Virus record (IMG/VR): IMGVR_UViG_3300043438_002023
Location: 1 to 37,528 of that record
DNA length: 37,528 nucleotides
Direction: 5' to 3' (one strand)
DNA from: a virus
A program made the position numbers and the translations under genes. Under the pieces are notes generated by a model, which did no database searches, had not been told where the DNA came from, and was given only the letters and a program-made list of their open reading frames with translations. Shown one piece after another: positions 865 to 31,340 of this stretch (position 1 is the stretch's first letter; the number at the start of each line of letters is the position of its first letter).

Positions 865-2664
865 ATGGAACCTGATCCACTCGTCACTCAATTCCGGGCG
901 ACTCTCCAAGCTCTCAGCACGGCCCCAGACGAAGAAGTGCTTGCCGCGGCCATGCGGTCCCCCGCGATCCATTTCGCTCTTTTCTGTCGCATCAAGAACG
1001 ACGACAACGAGGAGATCGAGCCGATGCCGAACGTGCTCCAGCTCCGCATGTGCGAAGCCTTCGAGACGGTGAAAGACCTAGGGATCCGCGTCCGCATTAT
1101 CGTGACGAAGCCACGCCGCGCGGGGTGCTCTTCATTCGTCGAGCATATCGGATACCACAGTGCCATGAACTCGCCGATCAGCGGGATCACCATTTCCGAC
1201 AACAAAGACCACTCCGCAGAGGCCATGCAGAAGCTTGGCAGCTACGCGGCGAGCGATTCCTACCCGTGGGGCGTGAGGATCATTGCCAACCCGGCCCACA
1301 GCATCGCATGGAGCAACGGCAGCACCTGGGTGGTAGACACGGCGGAAAACCCGGACGCCGGAGCCGGGGGCACCTACCAATTCGCGCATTGCTCGGAAAC
1401 CTCGAAGTGGCCGCAGACCACGACCAAGAACGACGTTAAAACGATGACGTGCCTTGCGCCTGCTGTCTCAGGGATGAACACGGTGATGTTTTCCGAGTCC
1501 ACTCCCGAAGGTGCGCGAGGATGGCAGTTCAAGACATGGGGAGAGGCCGTCACCCTCGACGAGTTCATCCGCATGTATGAGTCCGGGATCCGCCCGGAAG
1601 AAATCTGGATCAAGATTTTTGCAGCGTGGTTCGAGTTTGAATCCAACCGCCGGCGCGAACCTGTCTCAGAGCAGGAAATCGAACTCATCGAGAACACGCT
1701 CACAGACCACGAGATTTACGAGATCGAGAAATACAACCTCGATTGGGAGCAGGTGGCCTGGAGACGCGACACGATCAAGAGCAAGTGCGATGGAGATCCA
1801 AAGGTGTTCAGCTACTACTACCCGTCCGATGATGTCACCTGCTGGCTTGCATCGGGTGCTCCTCGCTTTGACATGCAAATTGTCTTGGAGATGGAAAAGC
1901 GGGCAAAGGAATCCACGCCGGAAACTGGCTGGCTGTTCTCGCAAGACGACAAGCGGGTTGTCTGGCAAGGCACGCGTGACGGCACCGGGGATATTCTCAT
2001 CTGGGAGATGCCTTTGCCCGGGCTGAAATACATCGTGGTCTTGGATCCTGCCTCAAACGCATCGCAAACCATCGGCGCGGACACAGATTGCCACTCCCTG
2101 AGCGTGTGGCGAGATGGCTACCACGACACATTGACGGACCGATACAAGCCCGCAAAGCGAGTTGCGCGACTCAAGCCGCCATACCGCGGGGAAGGCTCGG
2201 ACGTTGCAGGCCATGCGGCACGCCTGAGCAACTTCTACGGTCGGTGCATTGTCGCCATGGAGGTAAACATCGGACTTGGGATTCTAGAGCTTCTTCAAAT
2301 CGCCAGCGTTCCGCTTTACAAGCGCAAACCGCTATCTCACCGCACAGGCAAGGTTGAGGAGCAATATGGGTTCAAGATGGGAACCAAAGAAGAACGGGAG
2401 GCGCTGGTTTCCGGACTGGCCACCGCGATTCAGGACCGGAACATCGATCCGAGCTGCCCGCACGCCTGCGCCGAATACAAATCGTTTATCCGCTGGCCCG
2501 ATGGAAAGTCCGCAGCCGCCCAAGGAAGGCACGATGACGACGTTCTTGCCGACGCGATTGCATGGAAGGTGATGCCATCGGCCACGACCTACATCACCCA
2601 CAAGGCCAAGCACTTCGACCCGCCGGACGCGAAGTCATGGAAAACGGTCATTTCAAAGTGGTGA
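865..2664 (+). CDS. terL: Terminase large subunit (ATPase-nuclease)
   Basis: 599 residues, a normal length for the family. The N-terminal ATPase contains TKPRRAGCS (residues 81-89) where the Walker A loop should lie. It keeps the basic run but lacks the usual GK[ST] ending. FAHCSETSKW (about 173-182) fits the Walker B / catalytic Glu region, and SESTPEG (210-216) fits the coupling motif. The C-terminal RNase H-like nuclease has VVLDPA (Asp394), AMEVN (Glu466) and RHDDDVLADA (Asp557-559), the usual three acidic clusters. It powers DNA translocation into the prohead and cuts the concatemer. ATG 865 is chosen because it lies 44 bases after a leader motif. The stop is UGA followed by C, a leaky context, and the +1 frame stays open to 2752. 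Confidence 0.93.
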   Translation: MEPDPLVTQFRATLQALSTAPDEEVLAAAMRSPAIHFALFCRIKNDDNEEIEPMPNVLQLRMCEAFETVKDLGIRVRIIVTKPRRAGCSSFVEHIGYHSAMNSPISGITISDNKDHSAEAMQKLGSYAASDSYPWGVRIIANPAHSIAWSNGSTWVVDTAENPDAGAGGTYQFAHCSETSKWPQTTTKNDVKTMTCLAPAVSGMNTVMFSESTPEGARGWQFKTWGEAVTLDEFIRMYESGIRPEEIWIKIFAAWFEFESNRRREPVSEQEIELIENTLTDHEIYEIEKYNLDWEQVAWRRDTIKSKCDGDPKVFSYYYPSDDVTCWLASGAPRFDMQIVLEMEKRAKESTPETGWLFSQDDKRVVWQGTRDGTGDILIWEMPLPGLKYIVVLDPASNASQTIGADTDCHSLSVWRDGYHDTLTDRYKPAKRVARLKPPYRGEGSDVAGHAARLSNFYGRCIVAMEVNIGLGILELLQIASVPLYKRKPLSHRTGKVEEQYGFKMGTKEEREALVSGLATAIQDRNIDPSCPHACAEYKSFIRWPDGKSAAAQGRHDDDVLADAIAWKVMPSATTYITHKAKHFDPPDAKSWKTVISKW

Positions 2665-2772
2665 CCATGATCACTGGCTACTTGCCGAAGCCGCCGCCCA
2701 CGAGTCCATCTCCCTGAGAGAATTGCTTGCGCGGTGGCGAGAAAAGCGGTAGGGGTTTCCCGCAATCCGCAA

Positions 2773-3001
2773 GCGGCACCCTTTTTAGACCTCGGCTGGT
2801 ATTGGAGGGTGTCGCCCATTATTTTCCAGCGGTGACAAGCAAGCCCCCGACGGGGGGAGCGACCCACCGGTACCGAGACCAGAGCGGCGAGAGGTGCACC
2901 CTCGACCGTAGAATGACTAAAGCCGCATCGCACGTTGTCCGGCGTAAGAAGCCGATGCGTTGGAAAATTTGCCCGCTGTCAGCAATGGCAGCGGGCTTTT
3001 T
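2773..3001 (+). ncRNA. Candidate structured RNA or leader between terL and the giant gene
   Basis: The 370-base gap after terL has no convincing gene but contains a string of predicted hairpins, found by eye. A 10-bp stem pairs 2773-2782 with 2806-2815 (one G-U). A 5-bp C/G stem pairs 2844-2848 with 2852-2856. A stem with one bulge pairs 2888-2894 with 2899-2904 around a TGCA loop. A perfect 7-bp stem pairs 2924-2930 with 2953-2959. The series ends in the strong terminator at 2971-3001. The open frame 2727-3032 across it is rich in Arg, Gly and Pro and looks non-coding. It could be a small RNA, a 3' UTR, or an attenuator controlling the giant gene. I match it to no known RNA family. Confidence 0.4.
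2971..3001 (+). terminator. Intrinsic terminator with GCAA tetraloop
   Basis: An 11-bp stem pairs 2971-2981 with 2986-2996. It has one G-U pair and is closed by a GCAA (GNRA-type) tetraloop at 2982-2985. Five T follow (2997-3001). It separates terminase transcription from the giant gene, whose leader motif begins seven bases later. Confidence 0.88.
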
Positions 3002-3007
3002 CGTTTC

Positions 3008-3020
3008 CTGCGCCCGTTAC
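3008..3020 (+). promoter_or_regulatory. Leader motif copy 3 (CTGCGCCCGTTAC)
   Basis: Lies just after the terminator. It is 28 bases from the ATG at 3036 and 43 bases from the in-frame ATG at 3051. The latter matches the spacing at other copies and suggests 3051 as the true start of the giant gene. Confidence 0.5.
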
Positions 3021-3035
3021 CCGCCAGCGTAGCGC

Positions 3036-6000
3036 ATGGCAGTCTGCGGCATGGCTTCCCGATTCCGCTCTTTGTATGATCCCGCAGCTCAAAACGCATT
3101 GGACCAAGTTCCTACCGCTCCTGAGCCATCCGTTGACATCGCCCGCGCTCAAACGCTGGCCCGTTCATCCTCAAACCCAGCCGCCCAACGTGCAGGACGG
3201 CAAATGCTCGATGAGGCAGCGCGACAACAAGAGCGATCCCGGGAAGCATCTCAGCGCGAGGCGGAGCGTCAGGCACGCAAGGCGGACTATGAGGCACGAC
3301 GCGCCCAAAAAGAGCAGGAAAAGCAAGTCGCAGCCGATCAGGCACGCTCAGTGCGCGAAGCCGCTGCCGCCGGTGCCAAGATCGAAACCGACGTCGCCAC
3401 AGGCAAGCGCGCCGTCGCCACGCATTCAGACGGTGCTGTGAAATTCGAGACTGGCCCTGTCGGTGAACCGTTCGTTCAACAGACAGCGGAAGCCGCCATG
3501 TCGAGTATCCCCGGCATGGGTGGATTCATGTCTCTCACCCGCCCCGCCAACCAGCAATCGCTCGGGCAGACGCAGGAGGTGGCACAGACCTACCGCGATG
3601 ATCGAGGTGGACAGGTGACCGCCGCGCTTCCCACCAAAACCGACCCCAAGACCGGAGCCATCACCAGCACGGTGCAAGACCCTGTAACCGGACGCCCCAC
3701 CGCTGTTACCCTCGGCACCGATCAGGCGATCCAGGCGAAAGCAGCCAAGGATGCGGAGCTTGAGCAACGTCGCCAAGAGATCGCCCTACGGAAGAACCGC
3801 GTCGATCAGGATAAAATGCGCTTCACTCCCCAATGGGAGCCAGTGAAACGGGAGTTTGATGAGGCTGGCGAAGCGCTGAACGCTTTCACCGATCCCGAGA
3901 AGATCAAGTTCATTCGCGACCCCAAGACGGGCAAGATGGCCAAGCGCGACCCGAACACCGGACTTCCCTCGCGGGAATACGTCGATCCGAACGAGTTGGC
4001 GAAGTGGACCCAAGACAAGACCGCTCTCGAAGCCCGTCACGAGCGCGCGAAAGCCGCTCACGACAAGCTCTCCCCGTTCGCGGAGAATCTGAACCGCAAC
4101 GAGACGGAGATCGAGGAAGCCCGCTTGAAGTATGTGGAGGAGAAGATCCGGCACGACTCAGGCATCAAGGAAGACGCCCCGCTGTCATCCTTCACCACTG
4201 AAGGCAAAGCCAAAGCCTTGGAGGAACTCAGCACAGCGAAACCAACGACCGTCAAACTCAAGCAGCAGGACGGTAGCGAAGCTGATGTCCCCATGCTCCC
4301 GCTCAAGACCCAGGACGGGCAGAGCATCCACATCCCAATGGTGGATGAGGCCGGCAAGAAGCTGACCAAGGAACAAGCCCTCGACCAATACGACAAAAAG
4401 GGCACGCATGTAAAGCTGGAGACCGATCAGGACGACTCCGACACGGTTTCCCCGTTCACCCGCAAGCTCGTCAACATGGACATCGAGGCGGCACGGGTTC
4501 GAAGCGCGATGAGCACGGGAAAGGTTAACCCAGTGGCCGGAGAAAAGCGGTTTCAGCTGCTGGCAGAGCTGAAGAATCAGACCATCGAACAGGCCAAAGC
4601 AGAAGCCACCGCACGACTGGAAGCTCAAGGTCGCGAGATCGCAGCAAAGTTCATCGGCACCGGAGTCAAAAGCCAGCAACTCGCGGGGGCGAAGTCAGGG
4701 GGCTATGCCGAGTTCAAAAACGAACTCAACGAAATGGGCGCATGGATCACCGGAAATGAAAACATCCGGGAGAAGACCGCACAACGTTTCAGGCTTTCCG
4801 GCCACAACTTGGATCGCGCCATTACCATGGCAGAAGGCGACACCAAAAAGAGCCTCACGGCCATGAAGGAGCAGTTCGACAAGGCAGGAATAAATCCCGA
4901 GGAACGTGCCCGCATCATCAAGGATGCCGCGATGGCGCAGGCATGGACTGAAAAAGACGCCGACAACTTGCGCCAACTCTCCACGGGGGATTTGGTAATC
5001 AATCCAGGCCGCGTATTCGGTCAGAAGGATGCGCTCATTGCTGAAATCAACGCCAGCGACACGAATCCGGCAGCCAAAAAGGACGCCATTGCCCGACTCG
5101 ATGCGATGCGCAAGGCCATGGCTGAAACCCTCGAAAATGACACCTACTATGCCGACAGCGGATTTGCGGAGTTCGTCCAAGCCAAAGCGGAAAAGGGAGA
5201 GAGTGACAAAGTGGCGATGCTTGACGAGTGGATGGCCCAGCAAAAGAACCGCAACGGAATTTTCAAAGCGGTGGATGCGGTCAAGGTCGGCTTACAGACT
5301 GGCACTATCGGCATCGCCAAGACGGCCGTCGGTGGAGCGGCAGGAATCAGTGCCCTTGTCGGCGCGGACGGAATGGCGGGAAGCCTGGGTGAAAACGCGC
5401 AATTTCTCGGTGAAGCATCCAACCAGATTGGAGCCGCAGGTAAGACCCGCGGACTCACGGGAGGTTACGGCATCACCACCGACCTTACCAATACCGTCAC
5501 CCAGATGGCCCCGATGCTGGTTGGAGGATGGGCGGCAGGCGGACTCAAAGGGGCGTCCCAAGTTGCCACAAGAGGAGCGTCGGTCTATGGTTGGGCGGCA
5601 GCACAAGGCTACGAGTCCAAGCTATCCGATGCTCTGGACATGGCTGCCGCCAAGAAAGGCAGCGCATTGACCAGCGACGAGATCGCCGGGGTGCTGGGTC
5701 AGACCGATACTCAGGTGGCCGGATTCCTCAACGCCGCGCAAACCGTGATCCTCGCCGCCGCATTCCCGAAAGGCGCGGAAGCCGGCGCACTGGGCAAGGT
5801 CTCCGCCAGCATGACGGTTTCCGACTTCCTCCGCCGCGGTGGGATGCGAGCTGTCAAGGATGGCACGCTCCGGCAGGAAATCAAAACCATCGGCAAGAAC
5901 ATCTTCGCGGACGGCAAGGACGAAGCCCTCGAAGAATTCTCCAACCAAGTGCTCGACGGGATGATTTCCGTCGCCGCGCTCGACAAGGAATTGCAGCTCG

Positions 6001-9000
6001 GGACATTGCTGGAGGACTCATTCAAAGCCCTCGCCCTTGGCGGTGGAGTCGGCGGTGTCATGCCGCAGGTTTACGCCGGACAGACCAAGCAACAGCAACA
6101 CGAGCAACTGGCGGCCACCCTGCAAAACCAGATGCTCGGCCAGCCTGACCGCTCCATGGTCTCCACGGCGCTTGCCACCCTCGACCCGCAGACCAAGGCC
6201 CCGACCGAGGCGGAGATCAAGCAGGCCCGCCAGATAGTGCAGCCGTCCGTGGCAGCCTTGAAGGAAATCGAAGAGCGCCGCGCAGCCTATAAAGCCGCCA
6301 TCAAGGCCAAAGACTACAAGGGAGCCGCTGCCATCGATCAGGAGATCAACGACAAGTTCACCCAGGCGCAAACCGACGCCGCTCTCGCCGCTGCCGACGC
6401 AGTGCTTCTCACCCGCGAACTGGCAGGCATCGAAGAGCAGGCGAAAGAGGCAGTCGGCCAAGCAAACGCGGCCCTTTACCAAGCCAAAGCCACGGGAGAC
6501 AAGCAGGGCATCGCCGCCGCCGAGGCGAATCTGGAGCAGGTCACCAAGGACGCGCCAAACGTCCCGCTCGCCCGTGCCGCCGTGAAGCTAGCCACCGGGC
6601 AGGACATCAGTGCTCTCACCGATTCCGAGCTTCGCGCCGTGGGCTACAAACCCGGTGAAAGCGGGGCACCCGTGCAGATGACGACCAGCGAACTGAAAGC
6701 TCAAGGACTCGCCAAGCCACTAGTCCGCATGGATACCGCCGATGGATCAGCCGTCATTCTCGATGAAGCCATCGATCAAGTCATTCAAACCTCTACACTC
6801 GCGGCGCTCCGCATCCAACTTGGCGAGCAAGCCGCCATGGAAGCCGCGCAAGCCCGCTACGACTCCGCTCAACAAGCCACAACCCCACCCACCAATGAGC
6901 AAGACCCGCAAGGAACACCCGGACAAGAAGTCACTCCCGAGAATCCACAACCCGCACCCGCCGACGCGAACGCACCTCTTCCCGCAGGAGGAAATGGAAC
7001 CCCAGCGCCAGTATCAGGAGGAACCGGAGCCACGTCGGCGCAAGCGTCGGTAAACCTGGCCGAGATGGAGGCTGGCAAGTATGAAGCCGCCCGATCGATC
7101 AATCCGAACATGCCGGATGCCGCTTCTACGGTGAAAGTTGCGATTAATCGCAACCAGCCGGTTTCCGTCTCCATGGCCAAGGCTGCTGGAGTCAATCCCG
7201 AGGGATACACCCGCCAAGGCGCTTTGATGGTGCCGAGCGTTCGCGATGCGACTTCAACCCAAAATCAGGGTGATGCGATGCGAAATCCGAACGATTCCGA
7301 CTCTCGCGATGCGACTTCGGGAGAAAAAGACGTTAGAGTAATGCGAAATCCTGAGAAATCAGGATCTCGTGATGCGTTACCCGCTCAACCAGAACCTCAG
7401 TCAGCCGCGCAATCCGCCATTGATCGTGCAAAAGCCCGCTTCCCCGGCCTGACTGGCGGATTCCAGATCGTCGAGGGCGGAGATGGCACCACCGGGGGCG
7501 CTCAAGCATCGGGCGCAACCATTACCATCCTCACCGGAGACTTGGAGCGTGAATTGTCCGGCTATGCCCCGGAAAAGCAGGATTCCCGAGTCGATGCCGT
7601 CATTGACGAGGAGGTTATCCACCTGGCGCAATTCGAAGCAGCCCGCAGGTCCGGAGAATCCGTAGAGGACTTCTATGGCGCTCTCTGGGGTGAGTTCACG
7701 CCCGCGCAACGAAAAGCAGCGGCAAGCACCTACCAAGCGACGTTCGACAAGCAGGAGGATTGGCAAAAAGCAGCGGAAACCGTGCGCATTCTCATCCAGC
7801 AACGGGCAGATGGTCGAGTCACTGAGTTGACCAAGGCCTTCAACAAGAACATTCCCGCCCGCTTGGTCGAGATCCTGAAGGCTGCTGTTGAGTTCCTAAA
7901 ATCCAGCATCGAAAACGGCGAGATTTCCCAGCGCGTGCAAGATGCCATCACCGGGATTGAAGCCATCCTTGCCGAGTATTCCACGGACAAAACAACGGAC
8001 AAGAAGCAGGCTGCGACGCCCGTAAATCAGGCAACTGCGAGGGAAACTCAGGACAAAACAACGGACACAGCAACAACCGAGGAATCCTTTGCAGTTGACC
8101 CAGCCCAAGACCTCCGCGATGCCACCGAGACCATTCGTCAGGCCGTTGTCGCCGCGCTCGCCAGCAATCCCGCGCTCGAAGGCACCGATCTAGGCTTTGA
8201 CTTGGAAGACATCGCCTTCGACATGGCCGAGGCACTCGCCACCGTGCCGGCCGACCAACGGAAAGGCATGGTTGATGCCGCGATTGCAGCATGGCTCGAA
8301 GACAACATCGCCGAGAAACCAGCCAAGGCCACCGGGACCGCCGACCAGAAAGCCCGCCGCAAGGCATGGAGGCAGGCAGCACAGGAAAAACTCAACGCCG
8401 CCGCCCGCGCCATCCTCAACAGTGGTGTTCACGAAGCATTCTCCGCAGTCTTCGACAAGGGACGCATCACGCCAATGCCGAACATCCTCGGACTCATTCG
8501 CAAGCGGAGAGCGGACGGCAAGACGCTCACTCAGAGGGAAATCGACATCTGGCAGAATGAATCCGAGTGGAATGGGGCGCTGAAGAAGTCGAACTACACC
8601 GGAGGCGGGCAGAATCCCCTCGCACGGGCGATGATCGACCTCATCATGGCCCGCCAGGGTGAAGGGCAATCCCCCAACACCATGGCCGATGCCTTGAAGC
8701 GTGTCGGCACCGGGAAACTAAAAGACATGGATTCGGCTTCCGACATGTGGGAACAACTCGCCAAGGAGCTTCGCGCCGTCACCAGTGGCAAAAGCGAGGA
8801 CAAGGCGGGGTATAATCCGATGGATGACCCGAACTACGAACCCACCGACGCCGAGATTGCCGAGTGGGAGGCCAAGCAAGCCGCCACGGCGCAAGATCAG
8901 GATCAGCAGCCATACGTGACTCTTGGAGACGCCTACGGCTACGCCATCGAAGCTTTCGGGCCGGATGCGCCAATCACGCAGAAGATCGGCACTATCTCAG

Positions 9001-12000
9001 AACATGCCGACCGATTCTATCGTGACGACATGCCGTCAGTGCGAGCCGTGATTTCCGCCGAGTTTGCCCGCCATGCGAACGGCCAAGCGATTGTTGAAGC
9101 ACCCAAGCCCGAGTTTGAAGGACCAGCAGCAGCGTTTTATCGATTCTTCATCACCACCCCTGCGGAAAAAATGCGCGAAATGCTGGCATCATTGCCCGTG
9201 GCGGACGTTGACAGTGCTTTGTTTTCCTCTCCCTCACCCGGAAATATCCGGCTCGATCTAATTTCCTCCTTTTCAAAGCCACCCGCCAGCTATACCTATG
9301 AAACATCCAATGAACGCCGTGAAAGCATCCTCAGTATCGCCCGCAAGCATGGACTCCGACTCGTCAATCCGGCAGATCAGGGTACCGCAATCCGGCGGTT
9401 TCAAGAAGTTTATGGAGTCACGGTCACCTTCTATGAAGGAGGCTCCCCCAAGAACACGGGATTTGTTTCCGGCAACAACATCTTCGTCAACTCCGAGCGG
9501 AACGACATCCCGACTTCGTGGACGCTGACGCATGAGCTGATCCACGTCGGACAGAAAGACCTTACAGCAGGAACACCGGAAATCAGTGGATTGATCGGTT
9601 CGCTTCTGAGTGACACGGAACTCAAAGCAGTTGAGGACAGGCTTCTTTCCGAAGGGTACAAACGGCATGAACTTGCCACCGAGATTCCGGCATTCCTAAT
9701 TGCCGACGCCGTTACCGATGGGGAGGTATTTGGATTTGATAGTTTCGCTAGAGGAGCGGAGCTGAAAGCATCGCTGGTCGATTGGTTCGACAGCCTGCAA
9801 TCCTTGAACCCTGAATTGCTGAAAACCGCGACGGATGACGAGCTTACGCGACTTAACTCATCCCCCACCCAGCCCGGCTTCTCCTTCGACCAGACCACCG
9901 ACGCGGGAGACGCGAGCCAGAAGGGGTTCAACTTCGGCACCCTCCCCCCCGGTCCAAACGCCAAGTTTGTCGAGAACACCCAGAAAGCCTACGACCACGC
10001 GACCACCGACAAGGCCCGCGAGAACATCGCCAAGGACAGCGCAGCCCGCGAGGGCATGAAGAACCGCGGGAAAGTGCAAAACGTGCCGCAGGGCATGATG
10101 GACTTCGGCATGAGCGGGAGCTTTGGGACGAAGGATCAGCCTTCGCTCTTCGACGCTGGCCCGAACGGCCGCCCGAGCATCCAGACCACGGACGGCGGCA
10201 CTCTCGAAGCGCCAGGCCAAATCTCGCTTTTCTCGTCGCCTGCATGGCACGGCACGCCGCACAAGGTGGACAAGTTCAGATTGGCCAAAATCGGCACCGG
10301 GGAAGGGGCGCTGGCGTTTGGCTGGGGGCTGTATTTTGCCGGACTAAAAAAAGTCGCTGAAGATTATCAGAAGAAATTGGCGGATGGGTCACTTCTCACT
10401 AGAGACGGTCAAATCTTTGATGATCGTAAAGAGTTAAAGAACATGAATGTTCGCTCTGTTTTAAATCGGAATGACGGCGACATTGATGCTGCTATTGCTA
10501 GAGCAAAACAAGTGATTGAGTCGATTCCTGAAACTCAGGGTGCTGAGTATGCGGCTAACGATATTCAAAGACTTGAAAGGTTGAAGGAAGAGGGCGGTCT
10601 TAGAAAATCTACAGGCTACCTCTACACCGTCACGCTCGACGTAAACGACGAGGATCTGCTGGACTGGGACAAGCCGCTGAGTGAGCAGAGCGAGAAGGTT
10701 CAAGCCGCAATAAAATCACAAATGCCACAGCGTTCATGGGAAATCATGAAAAGCCGCAGCGGGCAGGAGTATTACGAACGTTATTGGAATGCAAAATCTG
10801 CCGCAATGGAGGGCGATATTCGATCAGCTTCACTTGCGATCAATAGCCTCGGCATCCCCGGCATCCGCTACCTCGACGGCAATTCCCGCGCGGACGGGCA
10901 AGGCTCCTACAACTACGTCATTTTCGATGAATCCCTGATCAAGATCACGGAAGAAAACGGGAAACCCGTGGAGACTGCCGCGCTCTTCTCCAGCCCTTCC
11001 AACCAGCGCTCGCTCGACTTCGGCTTCTCCGGATCACTCGGCACCCGCGATCAAGAAGGATTCGACTTCAGCGCCAAACCAGTCACCGGACCCGCCAAGA
11101 TGCCGCGGAGGCTGCCCGACACCGCTTTCACCCGAACCATTGACCGCATGGGCCCCGACCGCGGAGAACTCCGCAAGTTCGACAAGGAAGCCTACGAGGC
11201 CAAATACGACCGGATCAGCAAAGAAGAGCAGGCCAAGGATGCGGCCAATGACGCCAAGATCGACGCATGGCTTGCCACCATCCCCGAGAACAAGCCGATC
11301 AGCTTCGAGGTGGGGAATCCCGCTGAAGACTTCTCCGGATTCAACGTGGTGACCAAGAACGCCTCAGATCCTGCCCGCCCATGGCGTGCGACCTGGTGGA
11401 GACGCTATCCGCGCCCCGAGTGGACCGATGCGCAGGAAGAGGAATACGAAGCCCTTTTCAAGAAAACCCGCACTGGCATGATGGGCGTTTCCGATGAGGA
11501 ATACCGCGCCGTTCACGCCCGCTTGAACGAGCTGGCCGACATCCAACGGCTGCCCGGTAAGACCCGGATGATTCCCACCGGCCACCAGGAATTCAAAACG
11601 CGCCGCGAGGCATTGGATGACGCAGTGAGCATGACCGAGGGCAATCCGGAGCCGATCATCGGAGCGCTGTTCTCCTCACCCACACGAGGCCAAGGCAGCT
11701 TCGACTTCGGCACCACGGGCAGCTTCAACACCCGCAACCAGCCAGGGTTTGATTTCGGAACACCGCAGCAACCGACTCCACAGGATACTGCAAAACCCGC
11801 AGAATCGCCACAAGCGGAGACTCCCAGCCAATCCACACGCCCACGCTCCGCAGTCCAAAACCTCTGGGATTGGGCTTCCGACGCATCCGCCAGCATCGAC
11901 CCACGCGCCCCGCAGGGCAATTTGTTCGACACGACACCGAAAACAACCGATACTCAATCAAATGACATTCCTAGCAGCACCAATCTGGAACCAGATCGCC

Positions 12001-15000
12001 AGAAGTCAAACACTGGAAACGGAGGCCGCCAAGGTGGCGTTTCAACTCGACGGGGATCAACTCGCCAAGCAGGACGATCTTTGGATGAAGGCGGAAGCCG
12101 CAGCGGGGACGCCGGACAAGGTGGCGCGATGCCTGCCGGTGTGCCTTCCGCTACTGACGGAATCACTGGCGATCCAAGCGTATCTCCAACAGAACCCGCA
12201 GCTCAAGGGGGCGATTCCCGAGATTCTGGACGCAGCGGACGCCGTGGACCTGATGACGGCGGACTATCACCTCAACGCCCAGGAGCAAACGAGCCTCGAA
12301 TCAATCTTGTCCTCACCCCGGAAAGCACTGGCCCGCTGGCTCCAAGTAGCCCACGGAGCGCGCAGGGCAGCGTAACGGGTGAATGGAAATCTCCGCTCAC
12401 TCCCGAGCAGCAGGGCGATGTCGAGTTCATCGATGCGCGTCTCAATCAGAACGGGCACCCGGGCGTTCTTCTCACAAATGGCACCGGCACCGGCAAAACG
12501 TTCTCAGGCCTTGGGGCGATCAAACAGGCGCTCGACCGTGGAGCGATGCACATCCTCGTTGTGGCACCATCCGACAAGGTGGGAAGCGATTGGAAGAACA
12601 CCGCGCAAGAGTTTTTCAACATCCAAGACGCCGCGCAGTTGGTCGATACCAAGGATAACGGCGGCACCAACCGGCTGGTGATGACCACCTACGCGAACCT
12701 GGGGCAAAACGCCAATCTAGTGAATCGCCCGTGGGATCTGATCGTGGCCGATGAGGCGCACTACCTGAGCCAGAATAAAGAGGGAAAGGACACCAACGCC
12801 CTCGACACCTTGCGAGCGCTCACATTCCACAAAAACGGGATCTTCCGCCGAGCTGAGATGCTGGAGCCGGAAGCCGCTGAGATCTCGAAGCAAATCCGGA
12901 AACTGCCATTCCGCGAGAGAATGAGCCCTATCCGCACCGCGCAGATGGAGCAGGCCGACCGGGCACTGTCCGCCGCCCGCGAGCGGATCAAGTCGCAGAT
13001 GCCAGCCAGAGAAGCCCGCCCAAAAGCCATCCTGCTATCCGCCACTCCGTTCGCCTGGCATTTCTCGCTTGATTACGCCGAGGGATACCTGTTCGACCAC
13101 GGTCCGGAGCCAACCAGTCGAGCCTACAACACTCCATCCGCCCGAGATCGCTTCTATATTGAAAACTTCGGCTACCGGATGCGGACTGGCAAGCTCACCC
13201 AACCGGATGCCGCCGCCGCGACCGCCACGGGCATTCTAGAGCGTCGGTTTGCCGAGAAGCTCATGAAGGAAAAGGCCATGTCTGGCCGTGCGCTTCAGGT
13301 CGAGCAGGATTACAGCCGTCAATTCATCCTCAGTGAGACGAAGCTTGGCGAGCAGATCGACGCCATCATCAAGGCCATCCGCGAGAATCCACGCTTCACC
13401 GTGCTATCCGATTACATCGGCCTGGGTGACTACCTCGCCCGCCGCTACCTGCTCGAAGGCATGAAAGCCCGGGAATCAGTGGACCGGATCCGCAAGCACC
13501 TCGCCATGGGCCGCAAGGTCGTCGTGTTCCACGATTACAAAAAAGGCGGGGCCGTGAATCCACTTCGGGCAGTCTTCCACAAGGGAGACGTCATTGAGCA
13601 GCGGAATCAAGAAACCGGCGAGATGGAGACGATCAACCTGCCGATGCGATTAGCAGAACTGAAACGGGCAATCCCAGGGTATGCCGCCACCGAGCGCGAG
13701 CTGGACGGACTGCTCTCCCCGATTGACCGGATTGAACGCGAATTCCCGCAAGCCCGCATCTTCAACGGTAGCGTGCCGAAAGGACAGCGCCGCGCCATCG
13801 TGGATGAGTTCAACCGCAGCGGAAGTTCGGTGAACGTCATCCTTGTGCAGCGAGCCAGCGGCAAGGAAGGAATCAGCCTGCATGATCGAGACGCCAAGCA
13901 TCAGCGCGTGTTCATCGATATTGGACTGGCAAACCGTCCAACCGACGCCATCCAGGGCGAAGGCCGCATCTACCGCCACGGCGTGCGCAGCAATGCGATT
14001 GTCGAATACCTCAGCACCGGGACCGACTTCGAGCGGCAGACGTTTGCGGAAACCATCGCCAAGCGCTCCAGCACGGCGGAAAACCTCGCCATGGGTGAAC
14101 GCGCCCGCTCACTCCTGCAATCGTTCGCCAATGGCTATAACGAAGCGGAGGCCATCGATCCGAACGACAACCAAGGCACCGGAGGGAAAGAGATGGACCG
14201 CCAGATTGAGGAAGGCAGTTCCTACAAGACTGCCGTCGCGCTCTTCTACACGAACCAGAAGAAAACCAGCCGCAACAAGAGCAGCGAGGGCTCCGACTAC
14301 TTCGCCACACCGGAGCCGCTTGGCTTCAAAATGGTGGAATGGGCGGACATCCAGCCCGGCGAGAAGGTTCTTGAGCCATCCGCTGGCCACGGTGCGATTG
14401 CCCGCTTCTTCCCAGACAGCACGAACCGCCACGGCATCGAGCCATCCAGCGAGCTCGCCAGCCGTCTTGCCTTGAACGCAACGGACATCACGATTCACCG
14501 CCAGCGGTTTGAAGACTACAACGTGATGAACAAGTTCAACGCGGTGGTCATGAATCCGCCGTTTGGCACCGCGGGCAAGACCGCGATGGATCACCTCATC
14601 AAAGCCTTGGGTCATCTCCGCAACGGAGGCCGGGTTGTCGCGCTCATCCCCGAGGGATCATCAATGGAGAAGCGGTTCGACAAGTGGTATGAATCCGACG
14701 AGGCCAAGAACTACTATGTCCGCGCCGAAATCAAACTGCCGACCAGCACCTTCGAGCGTGCTGGAACTGGGGTAAGCACCCGCGTTGTCATCATCGACAA
14801 GATGGTCGCGCGGAAGGGTGACGAGCAAAAAAACCTTGAAAACACCCGCATCGACCTCACTCGTCACGAGACGCTGCAGGAGTTCATCAATGAATTGGAA
14901 TTCATCACCGTTCCACCGCGCCCCGAGGTTGCGCCAGTCGCAGCCGAGGAAGCCGAAGCCGAGCAAGCCGCAAACCTCGTCACCGGAGGCCGCGATTTCA

Positions 15001-18000
15001 TTCTTCCTTCCACCATCCCGCAACCAGAGGCGGAAACCACATTTTCGACGGCGGAATTCAACCACAGCAAGACCGGAGCACCGCTCTTCGTGGCCAAGAT
15101 CGAGCGCAGGCTGTCAAAAGACGAATACGCCCGCGTTGCGGCATCGGCCAAGGCATTCGGTGGCTACTATTCGAGCTACAACAAGGAAGGCGCGATTCCA
15201 GGCTTCCACTTCAAGAGCGCAGAGGCCCGCGACGTTTTTATCGGTGGTGCGTCCGGTGAGTCGCCGCTCGGATCGTCACCCACCGCGCTGTTCAGCTCGC
15301 CAACGCCAGTAACCAGCGAACAGCTTGGCACAGTGCTTCTTGACAAGATTGGCGAGGAGGCGTTACGTGTGGAGCAACCCAAGGCGAAATATGAAGACAA
15401 GCGCCAGCAACTATTCGACTTCGCGCAAAGCATCATCGAAGGAGATCCGGAATCGGGACAAGATACTGGAAACGATGCCGCCAGTGGAGACGTGGCTGGT
15501 GAACGGATGCTACTCGGACGACTCGGAGACGCTTCCATCATCCGCCAAAGACTCGCCAGAGACATCCAGACGGATCTACAGGTAAGGTTCATCGGAGATA
15601 CTATCGGGTCGCCAGAAGATCTTGCCGTAAAGGCGCAAGCGTTGCGCAATCCACGTTTCGAGACGTTCTATGTGCTCGCAGCCAAACACCGGACGGCCCG
15701 CGCCAAGAATGGAGCGGGATACCAGATCCTTGATGCCATGGCCATCACATCCCGAGTTCCAACATCCGCCGCTGTTTTTGTTGATGGGAAAAACATGGAA
15801 GACGGAATGAAGGATCACCTAGATTTTCTTCAAAGGGTCAATGCCACCCACTATTTCCTGCTCCACAACCACCCGAGCGGCGATCCAAGCCCGTCATCAG
15901 CAGATTTGCGAATGACCATGCTACACGCAAAGGAAATGGAAAAACAAGGTATCAAGCTGGTTGATCATATTGTCATCAACCATGAACCGTTTGCCTCCAT
16001 CGACGCTTACGGGGTGATCAATTCCAACAGCATCCCTGCATCATCCCTGCGTGAAGTCGGCACCGAATACGATCCGTATCGGTGGCCGAGCAAATTCATC
16101 GATGGAGTTAAAGACATCGGCATGGATGGAAACTCCCCCGACCAGATTGCCAGCATCGCCCGAGACATCGAGGCGGACCGCGCCAACCCGGATCATGTTC
16201 TTGGATTCATCGTCAACGCCAGAGGGCGGATTGTCGCTACTTTCACCGGCACGCAAGACCAGGTGTTCACCATCGGAAAAGATGCTCTGGTGGATTACAC
16301 CCGAGATCAGGGAGGAGCGCGGTTGATGCTCCATGCCAAAGCCGCAGACAGGCTTGCTGCCGAAAGGATGATCAACAGCTTCCATGGGCTGAATGTGCGG
16401 AACCTTCTCACGGACATTGTGGTGGACTTCAAGACTGCAAGTGGCCAAACACATTACATCTCGGGAGTGGAATCCGGTTTATTTGTTCCACCTCCCCAAT
16501 TCTACGGAGAAGAAAACAAATCAGCAGGAATGCGCGTGCAAGAGGGAAACCAACCCGACCTCTTCGCCGCCGCAACCGCGCCAGACGCCACACAGCGACT
16601 CGGCACCGTCAAAGTCGGCACCAAGAACGCGCTCGGGGCTTACCGTGCGCTCACAGCCAAGCGAGACGCCGGGAAGGCACTCACGGGCGAGGAAGAGCAA
16701 ACGCTCCTGGATGCCGAGCAGGCCCTTGGGCAGAAGCTGGCATTTGATATGGACGCGCTGAGAAGCACAGCACCCGTAACGGAGACACCTGCCCCCACCG
16801 CGCCCGCCGCAGTCTTCGGCCAGAACCGTCAAGCAGGCCAAGACGAGATGTCCCGCGCCGGGGAGATCGACAGGAGCGGGCAGATCAGCCTGCTTTCAAG
16901 CCCTACGCCCGCGCAAGATGCCGACTACCTCGCCGCTGTGGAGTCCGGCGACATGGAGACGGCGCAGCGGATGGTGGATGAGGCTGCGAAGAAGGCGGGG
17001 TATAACATGAGCCACCGCCAAAGGTCTCCTGACGTGAAAAAGACTGGGGACGTTCTGTTGTTTGTGGACGACACCACATCCAACACTTCCTATGGATCAC
17101 ACGACTTTGTTGTTAAGGGTCTCTCGGAAATCCCTGATTATGTAAAAACTTTTGCGTTTGATTATTACGGGGACGAAGGACAAACCGAACCGGAGGACAT
17201 CCTAGAAAGCGCACAAGCGTGGGATGATAGACAATTTGTTTCCGATTTATGGCAAAAGTATGGCGATACGTTCCTTGACGAAGGAATCGTTGGGTTCAAA
17301 ACCCCGGATGGTGCGGTGGTATTCGACCGCGCTACTGCGCTTGCAAATGGTCAAATCAAGTCCGCCGATCCCGTCACCCGTGACGCGGACGGAAACGTGA
17401 TCCCGCTTTCCCAGCGGTTCAACCCGGCCAAGGATTCCATTCTCTTCTCCTCCCCCACCCCGGAAACCATCGACTGGAAGAAATTCCCGCCCGTCTTCAA
17501 GCTGGTCTATGCAGCCATCCTCGAAGGGCAATCCGTTGCACAAATCGCCAAAAAGCTCCGCATCACCGAGAAGGCTGTCACCAATATCTCGACTCAGCTT
17601 AGCACCCGCGTGCAGGCGCTCGATGAAGCGGCAGACGGCAAGCTGGTTCCAAAGATGAACGACGGACTACTTGAGCGCGGACGCCCCGAGCGGGCCATGT
17701 CCGTCAGCTCGCCAGAAGTCGCCCGGATTCTGCAGATTCGCCAAGACAATGGAGATCCGGAGGTGATTGCCAACGCAGAAACCTACGCCAACGCCAAGCG
17801 GATGATCGCCGCCGACTATCAGGGGACCATCGAGCGCATTACCAACCGCCGCGCCAATGGTGAAGACCTCACCTTGGACGAAGTGGCTGCCGCACAAATG
17901 ATCTTGCTCGGCAAGGTCGGCAAAAAGCGGTCGCAGATGACCCCAGAAGAAAAGGTGCAGCTTGGATGGCTCGCAATGGACTGGGTGGAACAAGGCACCG

Positions 18001-21000
18001 AGGATGCTCGTCGCCTTCAGATCCGCCGCGACGTGACCCACAGCCCCGCCGAACGTGCAGCCCTCTACTTTGCCAAGGAACTCTACACCCCGCAGGACAA
18101 AGCCACCGTGGAAGCGCTGAAAAAGGCGAAAGGTCGCAAAGCCAAGGAGGAGGTGATGAAACGGTTCATGGAGCGCTCCGAGGGATTGAAAAGCCGACTC
18201 AAGGAGCGCGGAATCGACCTCGAAGCCTCTCTCGAAGAGTTCCGCCGGCAGCAGGATGAAAAGCAGGCCATGGAGGAATCCGTGAAGCAGGCGCATGATC
18301 GCCTCACGAACGGGTATCAAGACGAAGTGAGCAGCCTGCAAGACCAGCTTGCTAAGGCAAACGAGGCGACCGCCGCCGCGCAAGCCATGGGGCTTGCCAG
18401 TAAAGAACAGATTGCCAAAATGGAGGCCGACGCCGCAGCAATGGCGGAGAAGCTGAAAAAGGCCCGCGCCGACCTCAGCAAGGCCCGCATGTTGGAACCT
18501 GGACTTGTCCTGAGAACCGCACTCCTCAACCTCACCGACGCCCAAAAGGCAGCAATGGAAACCCTCCTGAACGGTGGCACCATTGAAAACGCCTTGGCTG
18601 TCGGAGGCATGACACAGGAGGCCCTCAAGAAACTTTACATCAACTTTGGCAACGTCTTGAAAAAAGCCCGCCTTGAAGCGCAGGCATTGGCCAAGCAACG
18701 GATGCTGGAAATGCCGCCCGTGCTCATGTCATCCTCCATGGAGTCTGACGAACTCCGCATGGTGGGATACGTGCCATGGGGTGAGTTGGAAGAGCGCAAA
18801 GCCCCGATCACGCCCGAGCAGGTGAAGGTCAAACCAAAGAAGCAGCCCAAGGCAAAGCCAGCGGAACCCGTTACCCTCACGCCCGAGCAGCAAGAGGCCA
18901 TCGACGCCGCGTTCGAGCGATTCAAAAACGCGGATCCTGCCACCTGGACCACGTTGTTCGAAACGGAATCCAAGACGCTTGCACCGCTCATCGGGCAAGT
19001 CGGTTTCGAGGAGTTCAAGGGACGCCTCTTGCAACCGTGGAAAGACCGCTGGCAAACAGAAATGGACGGTATTGCCAATCCCGCCGCGCGAATCACCTTC
19101 GAGGAGTGGATTGCCAAGCCATCGACCAAGGAGACGGCTAATCGCGAGCGCGATTTGTTCCCGCAGCCGATCAACGAAACGACCGGAACCTTTGACACCA
19201 CCGCGCCAAACCGCGAAGGCAGCCTATTCCCCGCTCCGATCAACGAGACCACTGGAACATGGAACGACACCCGGCCTTACACCTCGCAGGGTGAACTCAT
19301 CCGCGAGGAAATCAGCACGACTACCGGACTACTGGATTTCAATGATCCGCTTTCCGTCCGTAACGCACTCCGCGAGATTTCCACCGGCCGCAGTTCCACC
19401 ATGGACAGGATCATGGAATTCTGGCGTGCATCCATCCTTTCCGGGCCGCAAACCGCCATCGTCAACACGATGTCCAACTTTGCCTTTGGAGGATTCAACA
19501 TGGGTCCGCGTCGGGTGGTAGAAGCCGGAGTAAACTCGATGCTCAACTTGGCCGGCATCAAGTCAAACGAATCGGCAGATTTTGGCGAGTTGGTCGTCAT
19601 GGCCAAACACTTGAGGGGAGCCGCCAAGCTTGCCGGGTTAAAAATGTTGCAATCATGGCGTGAGGAATCCGCCAACTTCAAAGCCTATGCCTTGGCCTCC
19701 GAGAACCAACTGAACTTTGGCGGCAAGGATTGGGAATCGTTTGAACCCGCGCTTCCTGGCAAACTGGGAACTTTCATGCGGGCAATCAGTTTCCGCCACA
19801 TGCAGGCTGCCGACGAGTTCATGAAGTTCTTCTTCGGTCAGGTAGAAGCTGCAGCGCAGGCACACCGCATCGCCAAATCAGAGGGACTTAAGGGCAAGGA
19901 CTATCAAGCCCGCCTTGACGACCTCATTGAGCGCAAGGGATCGGAAGCATGGCAGAAAACCTTCGACATCATGCAGCGAAACACATTCCAAGAGGAAATG
20001 GTCCCGCTAGGCGAAAACACCGCCGCCATCCGCATCTTTGACACCATCGCCATGAAAGCAAAAAGCGCCCGCCGGATGCCATACATCGGTAGGCCTATCA
20101 CCTTCTTCCTGCCCTTCATCAACACCCCGACCAATATCGCCAAACAAGCGGTGGAAATGTCGCCGCTTGGCGGGATGCTGGCTCTCATCGACGGATCGCG
20201 CGCCCTCAAACGCCGACTCTCTGCGGGAAAGCTCAATGCCGACGGTATGCGGATTTCCAAGGAGGAAGCAAAAATGATGGCCGATGAACTCTACGACAAA
20301 GAGCGGTTCGTCAAAGACATGACCAACCAGGTAATCGCGTGGGGACTCTACTTTGCCATCTCGGCAATGGTAGATGGTGACGATGACGACGAGCTACCAC
20401 TGATCACCGGAACGATGGCCTACACCATCACCAAGCGTGGCGAGCGCGACGTTGCAGAGCGGGTCATGCCGCCTCAAAGTATTCGAATTCCAGGCACCAA
20501 CACCTTCATGTCCTATTCCCGCATGGACCCGTTTGCTACCATCATGGCAGGCATGGTGGACATGACTCGTTCACTGAATCGGGAAGGAGGAATGAACTCC
20601 AAAGTCGCCACAGATTTCCTTGTTCACACCAAGAACGCCATGAAGGACAAAACCTTCCTCCAGGGAGTTTCAAACATGATCAATGCGCTCGAAGATCCAT
20701 CCCGCGTCATGGAACGGCTTTCCGCTGGCATCCTCACAGGATTTGTTCCTAACCTGATCCGCCAGCCCATCAGGGAATCAGACATGATGAAGCGGGATGT
20801 GAGCCCACGAGAAAGCGATGGTCTAGCCATGTCGATCGCCAAGCGAATTGGATACTCTATCGTCCCGGCATCCGCTCCGCTTAAGATCGACGTCTGGGGC
20901 CGAGAACTCCCCGCAAACCACGGTGAAATGATTGGCGGGCACCCGGTAGCCAATGCCATTTTCCGCACGCTTGATCCCACCAATTTGACAGTGGGAGCCA

Positions 21001-22675: not shown

Positions 22676-22765
22676 GGGCTTTTCACTATATGAACTTCTG
22701 AGGATTGTAAAGCAGGCGTAACAACTCTCCCTCTGCGCCCGTTACGCTTGGGCAAAGCATCGGGA
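22676..22765. promoter_or_regulatory. Divergent control region, DnaA-like gene / portal
   Basis: A 90-base gap between divergent starts. On the - strand TTTACA, 15 bases, TATAGT (about 22690-22716) could be a weak sigma-70 promoter for the DnaA-like gene. Leader motif copy 4 for the portal lies at 22733-22747. Confidence 0.3.
22733..22747 (+). promoter_or_regulatory. Leader motif copy 4 (CTGCGCCCGTTACGC)
   Basis: Identical to copy 2 over 15 bases, with a shared CTC just before it. It lies 33 bases from the portal ATG at 22766 and 45 from the in-frame ATG at 22778. Confidence 0.5.
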
Positions 22766-24820
22766 ATGATGCCCGGCATGATTACGAACGTCGTCGCGCC
22801 AGAAGCTCCAGAAAAGAAAACCCGCAAGGGCATGAACCTTGCCAGCCAGCAAAGCGCCCTCTCCCGCCAACTCGGGGACATCGGCACGCAATGGCTGCTC
22901 AATCACATGACAGAACGATGGGGCCAGCTTCACGGCAACATGGGATCGTGGCGGGCCAAAATGGAGAAATGGGAGCGCATGAGCGAGGAGGATTACTCCG
23001 ACCGGAAAGCGAGCCGCGACAAGGTGAACTCCTCATCCGTGCGTGACATCTTCCTCGACCAGAACGACACGCTTGGCACCTCTGGCGGGTTTGTGGACTT
23101 CCATGCCGCCCAGGCCCGCAACGACATTTTCGGCACCCGGCCATGGTTGGCTGCCGTTCCCGAAGGAAAGGATGACATCGACCTTGCGGAAATCATGTCG
23201 AAGCACGCGCAATGGAAGTTCAACCAAGGGGACTTGGAAGACGCGCTCATCGATGCCATCCGAATTTCTACCTGGGGCGGAACCGCATTTGTAAAACCCG
23301 TGTGGGAATCCGACATCGATGTTTTCACGCGCAAGGTGCCGGCCGCGTATTCTCTTGCCACCGGAGAGCCGATCATGAACGCCGCTGGCGAATACGTGCA
23401 GACTGCCGAGGAGCTCGCCGAGATGGGTGTCACCGAGGACCAGATGGAATGGAAAGAAGCCGAGATCGAGGAAACCCAAGTTATTTCCCAGAACGTCACC
23501 GCCTCCTGCCTCGATTGGAAGGACATTGCCTTCGAGACCACCGCCAAGGCGCTCGACCTCAAACATACCGACGTGTTTTGCCGGTTCCGCATGGGACTGC
23601 TCGACGTGATGGAGCGCTACCAGATTGCGGAAGAGCATCGAAACGACCTGCTTGGAGCCGTGCTTGGATACAGCGAGGAAGCTCGCTCCCACCGCGACGA
23701 GTCCGACCCTGCCACCACTTGGGCCGTCCATGAGATGAACGCCAATCCGCTCGTGACGCTCGTTGAAGCCTTTGTCCGGTGCGATCCTACCGGGAGCGGC
23801 AGACCTCAGCGGATTCACGCCATTTTCTCCCCCGACATGAACATCCTGTTTGCCGTCGATTCCCTCTCGAACATCACCCCTGGCGGTGTGCTTCCCATCT
23901 TTCCGGTCCGAATCAACAAGCTGCCCGGGCGGATTTTCGGCAAAGGCTACTTCGAGAAATACGAGAACGCCAACAACGCGATCGACAGGCAATACAACTG
24001 CATCACCTACCGCAACCGCACCGGGGCCCACATTCACACCGCGTTTCAACCGGACGCCCTGCGCGACGGTGGCGAGAACCGCGAAGTATTGCTGGATCCA
24101 AACAATCCCTACGTGCTTGCCGAGGGGAAAACGATTGACGACCTAATCGCCTTCAAGGTCGCGCCCGAGAACAACGCCACGGCGAACAACCTGCTGAATC
24201 AAGTCATGCAGATGAACCAGATGCGAAGCGGCATCACCTCGGCAGCTCAAGGCGAGCTGAAGGGAGTTCCATCGGCATCGACGGCCACCGGCACCCGTGA
24301 TTTGCAAAGCCGCGGCGCTGTCATCATCAAGGACCCCATCGACACCCAGACCAACGACATCCGCCGCATCGCAGAATACGCCGTGATCGTGCTTTACGCA
24401 AATCAGGACAAAGACGAGACGTTTACATGGTCTGAGGGGACGGCCCAAAAGCTCCTCACGATCAAAGCTGGCGACGTCCAAGGCATCCGGGCAAACGTTT
24501 CGCTCACGCTGGTTCAGGCTCAGAATCAGGCGAAGCTGCAATCCGCGATGACGGCAATCGACGTGGTGACCAAGTATTTTGGCATCATGGAGGCCGACAA
24601 GCAGGCCGCTCGCCCCGCATTTGTGCAGGCGCTTTCCTCGGTCGGGTTTAATAATGCTGACGACATCATTCGCAAGGCCACCGTTGATCCCGAGGGCATC
24701 CTCGCCCTGTGCCCGCCGGAAATCGCGCCACTGGTGCAGCAAGCCTTCGTGGAAGCCGGACTGATCGCCGATCCCGCCGCGCCAGCCTCCCCCGCAGAAG
24801 AGCCCCCTGCGCCCGTATAA
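22766..24820 (+). CDS. Portal protein
   Basis: 684 residues from ATG 22766; the in-frame ATG at 22778 gives the usual leader-motif spacing and may be the true start. A longer TTG start at 22748 would overlap the motif and is not preferred. Typical features are an acidic helical start, AALIDAIRISTWGG-like 'DALIDAIRISTWGGTAFVKP' in the wing, GKGYFEKYENANNAIDRQYN before the stem, and a long C-terminal helical part with MNQMRSGITSAAQGEL. Size and order match podovirus portals, the dodecameric DNA gate on which terminase docks. The last codons are Pro/Ala-rich and contain leader motif copy 5. The scaffold and capsid genes lie 3.8 kb downstream rather than adjacent. Confidence 0.85.
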   Translation: MMPGMITNVVAPEAPEKKTRKGMNLASQQSALSRQLGDIGTQWLLNHMTERWGQLHGNMGSWRAKMEKWERMSEEDYSDRKASRDKVNSSSVRDIFLDQNDTLGTSGGFVDFHAAQARNDIFGTRPWLAAVPEGKDDIDLAEIMSKHAQWKFNQGDLEDALIDAIRISTWGGTAFVKPVWESDIDVFTRKVPAAYSLATGEPIMNAAGEYVQTAEELAEMGVTEDQMEWKEAEIEETQVISQNVTASCLDWKDIAFETTAKALDLKHTDVFCRFRMGLLDVMERYQIAEEHRNDLLGAVLGYSEEARSHRDESDPATTWAVHEMNANPLVTLVEAFVRCDPTGSGRPQRIHAIFSPDMNILFAVDSLSNITPGGVLPIFPVRINKLPGRIFGKGYFEKYENANNAIDRQYNCITYRNRTGAHIHTAFQPDALRDGGENREVLLDPNNPYVLAEGKTIDDLIAFKVAPENNATANNLLNQVMQMNQMRSGITSAAQGELKGVPSASTATGTRDLQSRGAVIIKDPIDTQTNDIRRIAEYAVIVLYANQDKDETFTWSEGTAQKLLTIKAGDVQGIRANVSLTLVQAQNQAKLQSAMTAIDVVTKYFGIMEADKQAARPAFVQALSSVGFNNADDIIRKATVDPEGILALCPPEIAPLVQQAFVEAGLIADPAAPASPAEEPPAPV
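24807..24820 (+). promoter_or_regulatory. Leader motif copy 5 (CTGCGCCCGTATAA)
   Basis: Overlaps the last four codons of the portal gene, including its TAA, and lies 44 bases before the ATG at 24851. The motif is kept even though it is constrained as coding sequence. Confidence 0.5.
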
Positions 24821-24850
24821 AAGCCAGACCACTTGTGCCAGTCTCCGCGC

Positions 24851-28602: not shown

Positions 28603-28616
28603 CTGCGCCCGTTTTC
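28603..28616 (+). promoter_or_regulatory. Leader motif copy 6 (CTGCGCCCGTTTTC)
   Basis: Lies 45 bases before the scaffold ATG at 28648. The CCCGTTT here pairs with AAACGGG downstream (28608-28623), so the motif forms a small hairpin in this copy only. Confidence 0.5.
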
Positions 28617-28647
28617 AAACGGGAATTTCGGGGCATGATTGCCACCG

Positions 28648-29652: not shown

Positions 29653-29712
29653 AGCCGGAATTCCGAGGTGTCACTGGTCGGCAAAACCACTCCCTAGAAA
29701 GACACCACTTCA

Positions 29713-31287: not shown

Positions 31288-31307
31288 GCGGCCCCCCCAC
31301 ACCCTGA

Positions 31308-31340
31308 GCGGGGCGGCGATCATCCGCCGCCCCGCTTTTT
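31308..31340 (+). terminator. Intrinsic terminator after the capsid gene
   Basis: A perfect 11-bp GC-rich stem pairs 31308-31318 with 31325-31335. It has a six-base loop (ATCATC) and is followed by TTTTTCTTTT. It closes the portal-to-capsid unit. Confidence 0.92.

Follow-up and report, generated by a model that had tools for sequence, protein, structure and literature searches.

Polyvalent proteins are known from phages and mobile elements (PMC5512222). Here, we analyzed a 37,528-nt stretch of viral DNA (IMG/VR record IMGVR_UViG_3300043438_002023; hereafter, the window), which is a tailed-phage genome fragment with the gene order terS, terL, a giant open frame, portal, and further structural genes. 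The giant gene (3051–21332, [+] strand; ~18 kb) encodes RadC and ResIII/SNF2-type helicase domains as well as a weak match to an ADP-ribosyltransferase (ART) domain, a set that, judged from the sequence, fits the polyvalent proteins. Its N-terminus is like those of its relatives, and the ATG at 3051 (MASRFRSL), rather than the start of the mechanical ORF (3036–21332), is its likely start because the relatives begin with MASRFRSL or a similar sequence. Upstream, the terminase small subunit gene terS (319–810, [+] strand) matched PHROG 51 (E-value of 2.3e-21), while the large subunit gene terL (865–2664, [+] strand) was assigned by tblastn to annotated terminases, a weak match to PHROG 24361, and relatives that are 42–100% identical, taken from viral contigs and, in two cases, from MAG contigs. 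The phages of this group, which carry giant polyvalent genes, probably infect Verrucomicrobia; one of the phage contigs (L033) belongs to a MAG assigned to Hyphomonadaceae, even though the relatives of this phage indicate Verrucomicrobia, so that a binning error may be involved. Elsewhere in the window, two long open frames of 537 and 524 aa lie nearly exactly opposite each other (29710–31323 on the [−] strand and 29713–31287 on the [+] strand).

The subject of this analysis is the gap between terL and the giant gene (2665–3050). Its 3′ part resembles described intrinsic (rho-independent) terminators in having a G+C-rich 11-bp stem, a GNRA tetraloop, and a U-run, and also in its placement at the 3′ end of a gene, ahead of the next promoter. 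It differs from them in having ~200 nt of further structure, of no known function, in front of it. Among catalogued RNA families, Rfam gave 0 matches in the window at gathering thresholds, and at permissive thresholds the best sub-threshold E-value was 0.21. This weak match was to anti-hemB (RF02837) and covered positions 2928–3004, i.e., mostly the terminator hairpin, but its 16.8 bits fall below the gathering score of 49.5, and the window RNA is therefore not a member of that family.

Predicted fold and content of the gap

A G+C-rich hairpin followed directly by a U-run was found at 2971–3001 on the (+) strand. Its stem (2971–2981/2986–2996) has 11 pairs, eight of which are G-C, and it is closed by a GCAA loop of 4 nt and followed by the tail TTTTTCGTTT, which contains the run TTTTT; the 11-bp GNRA-capped terminator proposed by the sequence-only reading is thus present as described. 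Upstream of it, the minimum free energy (MFE) fold contains a first hairpin of 12 bp (2773–2784/2804–2815, i.e., 2773–2815, [+] strand; pair probability of 0.98) and a multi-branched domain (2821–2968, [+] strand) closed by a 10-bp helix (2821–2830/2959–2968). The inner helices of this domain measure 5 bp (2844–2848/2853–2857), 10 bp (2884–2894/2899–2909), and 7 bp (2925–2931/2951–2958). The four helices of 10, 5, 6, and 7 bp listed earlier were recovered by the fold, some of them longer than stated, whereas the 10-bp closing helix was missing from that list.

Folding energy was compared with shuffled sequence, a check that the same reading had proposed. The predicted folding energy of the 229 nt is −104 kcal/mol (z of −5.2), and none of 200 dinucleotide shuffles was as stable. 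By part, z was −5.4 for the terminator stretch (2960–3003), −4.2 for the first hairpin (2773–2820), −2.3 for the middle domain (2816–2966), and −2.6 for everything except the terminator. Hence, the terminator and the first hairpin are clearly more stable than chance would give and account for most of the excess stability of the whole, but the multi-helix middle domain exceeds chance only marginally. The minus strand of the same region gave a z of −0.9. Across the whole sequence, 163 segments of the same length had a mean z of −0.1 (standard deviation of 1.2; a rough estimate from 15 shuffles each), with one segment at −5.0 and several between −3.8 and −2. A good fold seen in the coarse scan near position 28626 lies mostly inside an open reading frame.

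The gap had also been described as lacking a credible gene, with a conserved protein in one of its frames as the observation that would speak against a structured RNA. This description was upheld, as no protein family match was obtained for the three ORFs overlapping the gap and no tRNA was found in it.

A predicted phage-type promoter downstream of the terminator

By pattern and spacing statistics, a bipartite promoter, TGCGCCCGTTAC-N17-GGCAGTCT, is predicted for the giant gene at 3009–3045 on the (+) strand; its upstream box begins 7 bases 3′ of the terminator T-run, and its second box ends 5 nt before the ATG at 3051. The same upstream box was found on the (+) strand before terL (822–858; ATG at 865), before terS (246–282, here with an A+T-rich second box), and before the portal gene (22734–22770). 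The motif pattern also occurs 5′ of the gene that follows the portal gene (24808–24844) and after the endolysin gene (28604–28639), both on the (+) strand. Overall, the motif recurs at fixed spacing 5′ of structural genes, both in the window and in related phages. Specifically, TGCGCCCGT has 37 exact occurrences in 20 phage sequences, 34 of them on the (+) strand, whereas 200 permuted 9-mers occurred on average 4.7 times (maximum of 20) in the same sequences. Among 40 aligned sites, which include the variant TCCGCCCGTT, the second box (G.CA...T) was found at offset 29 in 20 and at any other offset tested in no more than 2. The two boxes, 17 nt apart, have the geometry of a sigma-factor promoter.

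The pattern appears to belong to the phages. One such phage lies in a 3.4-Mb Verrucomicrobia MAG, where the pattern occurred three times, each time on the contig carrying the phage terL; a longer form of the pattern had no occurrence in 58 other genomes of the phylum. The second box differs widely from a host sigma-70 −10 element. In the window itself, neither a polymerase nor a sigma factor was identified, and a sigma-70 region-4 protein scoring above the cut-off was found neither there nor in the other records, all of which are fragments. Sigma-70 region-4 proteins were seen on the contig of L034 (G001:C89:8350-8496), which is the phage contig of the above MAG, and in the L045 record (G395:9422-9568), and these are candidate readers of the promoter. 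Since the second box usually ends 5–8 nt before the ATG, which leaves no room for a leader, the mRNAs started from this promoter are probably leaderless.

The terL–giant gene slot in related phages

In the sequences searched, the window RNA has no recognizable counterpart. DNA similarity searches returned only chance-level fragments in 50,697 phage records and in 288 Verrucomicrobia genomes. A single-sequence covariance model of the RNA found only itself across 22 sources and, with filters off, had no match in the gap of the closest relative (L002/L023; TerL 87% identical). The latter gap is 449 nt long, contains its own terminator and two promoter copies, shares neither significant sequence nor significant structure with the window RNA, and folds only slightly better than its shuffles (z of −1.6). 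The window and the L002 gap also match in inverted orientation (GGGAGCGACCCA), but this match was set aside as compatible with chance (E-value of 0.15). A 28-nt stretch of the window (2724–2752; GCTTGCGCGGTGGCGAG...GGTAG) is 71% identical to one located just after the L002 terL (E-value of 0.15) and may represent a promoter or a remnant of coding sequence. The N-terminus of the giant gene, used as a query for more close relatives, yielded none with a new gap.

Other relatives fill the slot differently. In L030, L032, L041, and L043, terL and the giant gene are separated by the promoter alone; L045 has the promoter variant TGCGCCCATT instead. Small ORFs are found there in L021, L026, L027, L028, L033, and L042, and tRNAs in two phages (tRNA-Arg at L034:10329-10414 on the [−] strand and tRNA-Met at L042:7846-7919 on the [+] strand). 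Terminator-like hairpins with T-runs lie just 5′ of the same promoter in L002/L023, L026, L027, and L033. These comparisons show, at the level of sequence, that the slot is exchangeable between phages and that its content in the window is an orphan; because the slot is variable and holds the promoter alone in several relatives, the window RNA is dispensable. Within terL itself, the proteins encoded at L004:5465-8146 and L005:5977-8658 carry an insertion before the C-terminal end that starts with CFIRGTMILTPSG, ends with VHNC, and looks like an intein; by eye, an overlapping ORF inside the insertion in L005 (L005:7902-8510) resembles an HNH endonuclease.

Four relatives (L027, L028, L033, and L053) carry a two-hairpin RNA, modeled here as R1, in the slot. 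It combines the conserved loops CUCGGGACAG and UUCUGGCUGGUUGU with unlike stems, followed by T-rich sequence. The phage copies (L027:2774-2872, L028:3158-3256, L033:4215-4306, L053:6900-6987, and L114:7020-7113) are single and lie between genes, mostly right after a stop codon; outside the four relatives, R1 occurs in a different phage, directly 3′ of the stop codon of a gene. The stems of the four phage copies are largely different. When 39 copies were aligned, 20 of 23 pairs had changed on both sides, and the covariation score was 0.563, compared with 0.191 for shuffles and no more than 0.158 when the partners were slid, although these figures lean upward because many of the 39 copies are related array units and because the copies were aligned to the model. 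R1 shares with the window RNA its slot and its 3′ end, where a terminator-like hairpin precedes T residues. The two differ in the conserved loops of R1, and the R1 covariance model, run with filters off and E-values up to 10, had no match at 2773–3001. The loop of the first hairpin of the window (GGCUGGU) looked like an R1 loop and was rejected, as this model does not find it.

R1 is also present in bacterial chromosomes, where it forms tandem arrays of ~105 bp per unit. A pattern search detected such arrays in 6 of 387 Verrucomicrobia genomes, and the model added a further one (G279). Arrays are present in L118–L124; at the loci examined, they occupy the interval from mraZ to the MraW domain, within an open 5′ extension of the mraW frame. 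In this frame (MLFTPP...), arrays lie at L122:1387-1905, L119:1270-1917, and L123:1384-2316. The unit spacings are nearly all multiples of three, and the loop nucleotides are nearly invariant, third codon positions included. The arrays are possibly a structured nucleic-acid repeat that would also be translated. Rfam had no matching family at the phage and array R1 loci searched, and literature searches by title or abstract gave no match for an RNA at mraZ in Verrucomicrobia or for structured RNAs beside terminase genes.

Candidate roles of the gap

The terminator sequence, the promoter motif at fixed spacing, the exchangeable slot, and the lack of any RNA homologue among the sequences searched, all documented above, agree with a reading of the gap that we consider probable, i.e., as the boundary between two transcription units, with a terminator followed by the giant-gene promoter. 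RNA polymerase coming from terS-terL would enter the non-coding 3′ region and stop at 2971–3001, and the giant polyvalent gene would be started anew from the phage-specific promoter at 3009–3045, giving an mRNA that is probably leaderless given the 5 nt between its second box and the ATG. The folded RNA at 2773–2968 would then be the 3′ untranslated end, or a by-product, of the terL transcript. Both the actual termination and initiation at the gap and the absence of a leader are what we infer from these sequence features. Two observations count against this boundary: the fold beats 200 of 200 shuffles and its first hairpin is strong alone, neither of which a plain 3′ UTR needs, and the second box is unlike the host −10 element, with no polymerase or sigma factor identified in the window to read it.

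Alternatively, ~2760–3001 could be released as a stable, terminator-ended phage small RNA of ~230–240 nt, either transcribed from a promoter of its own or processed out of the 3′ end of the terL mRNA, and acting on host or phage RNA or on a protein. We regard this as possible but rather unlikely. The z of the whole, the strong 5′ hairpin, and the terminator at the 3′ end all suit such an RNA, the four relatives with a different, covarying RNA in the slot indicate that structured RNA is not unusual there, and the stretch at 2724–2752 is possibly a weak promoter. However, in a search covering sigma-70-like and phage-type promoters, no sigma-70-like site was found in 2400–3300 and no TGCGCCCGT box just 5′ of 2773. 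Moreover, no homologue was found in the searches of phages, viral contigs, and genomes of Verrucomicrobia, the closest relative has unrelated sequence in the slot, and the middle domain is marginal against shuffles. Still more speculative is the idea that the slot in these phages serves to accept exchangeable regulatory RNAs and that the window RNA is the first member of a new family acting during infection. If true, an RNA of this kind would, for example, control termination or bind a host factor, as R1 may do in the relatives.

The sequence-only reading had alternatively proposed a switch that limits read-through into the giant gene. The part of this proposal that stands is a terminator against read-through from terL, which the sequence supports. 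In contrast, a phage promoter is predicted 3′ of the terminator, with 5 nt between it and the ATG, which would put the RNA outside the leader rather than in the 5′ UTR of the giant gene; since that gene has its own predicted promoter 3′ of the RNA, the arrangement would be that of a terminator/promoter boundary and not of a riboswitch-like leader, and the giant gene is unlikely to be preceded by a switch. An attenuator that decides terL read-through by mutually exclusive helices could be built from a weak terminator-like hairpin with a T-run (2752–2782), which competes for bases with the first hairpin (2773–2815), and the strong terminator downstream (2971–3001). We consider it improbable, as the first hairpin is made only after the T-run of the weak terminator and is therefore too late to prevent termination there, and the slot is empty in several relatives with an otherwise similar giant gene. 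Lastly, a DNA-level site with incidental inverted repeats, e.g., a packaging or replication signal, would suit the position beside the terminase genes but is very unlikely, being conserved in no relative, although the terminase is, and showing a fold excess on the (+) strand only.

At the probable boundary, the window's own element is thus an ordinary terminator joined to an orphan folded region, and its context is more useful than the element itself. This context includes a bipartite, phage-specific promoter that lacks an obvious leader before the start codon and that a group of phages carrying giant polyvalent genes has in common. In relatives, the slot holds a covariation-supported RNA that is missing from Rfam and occurs in bacterial chromosomes as well.
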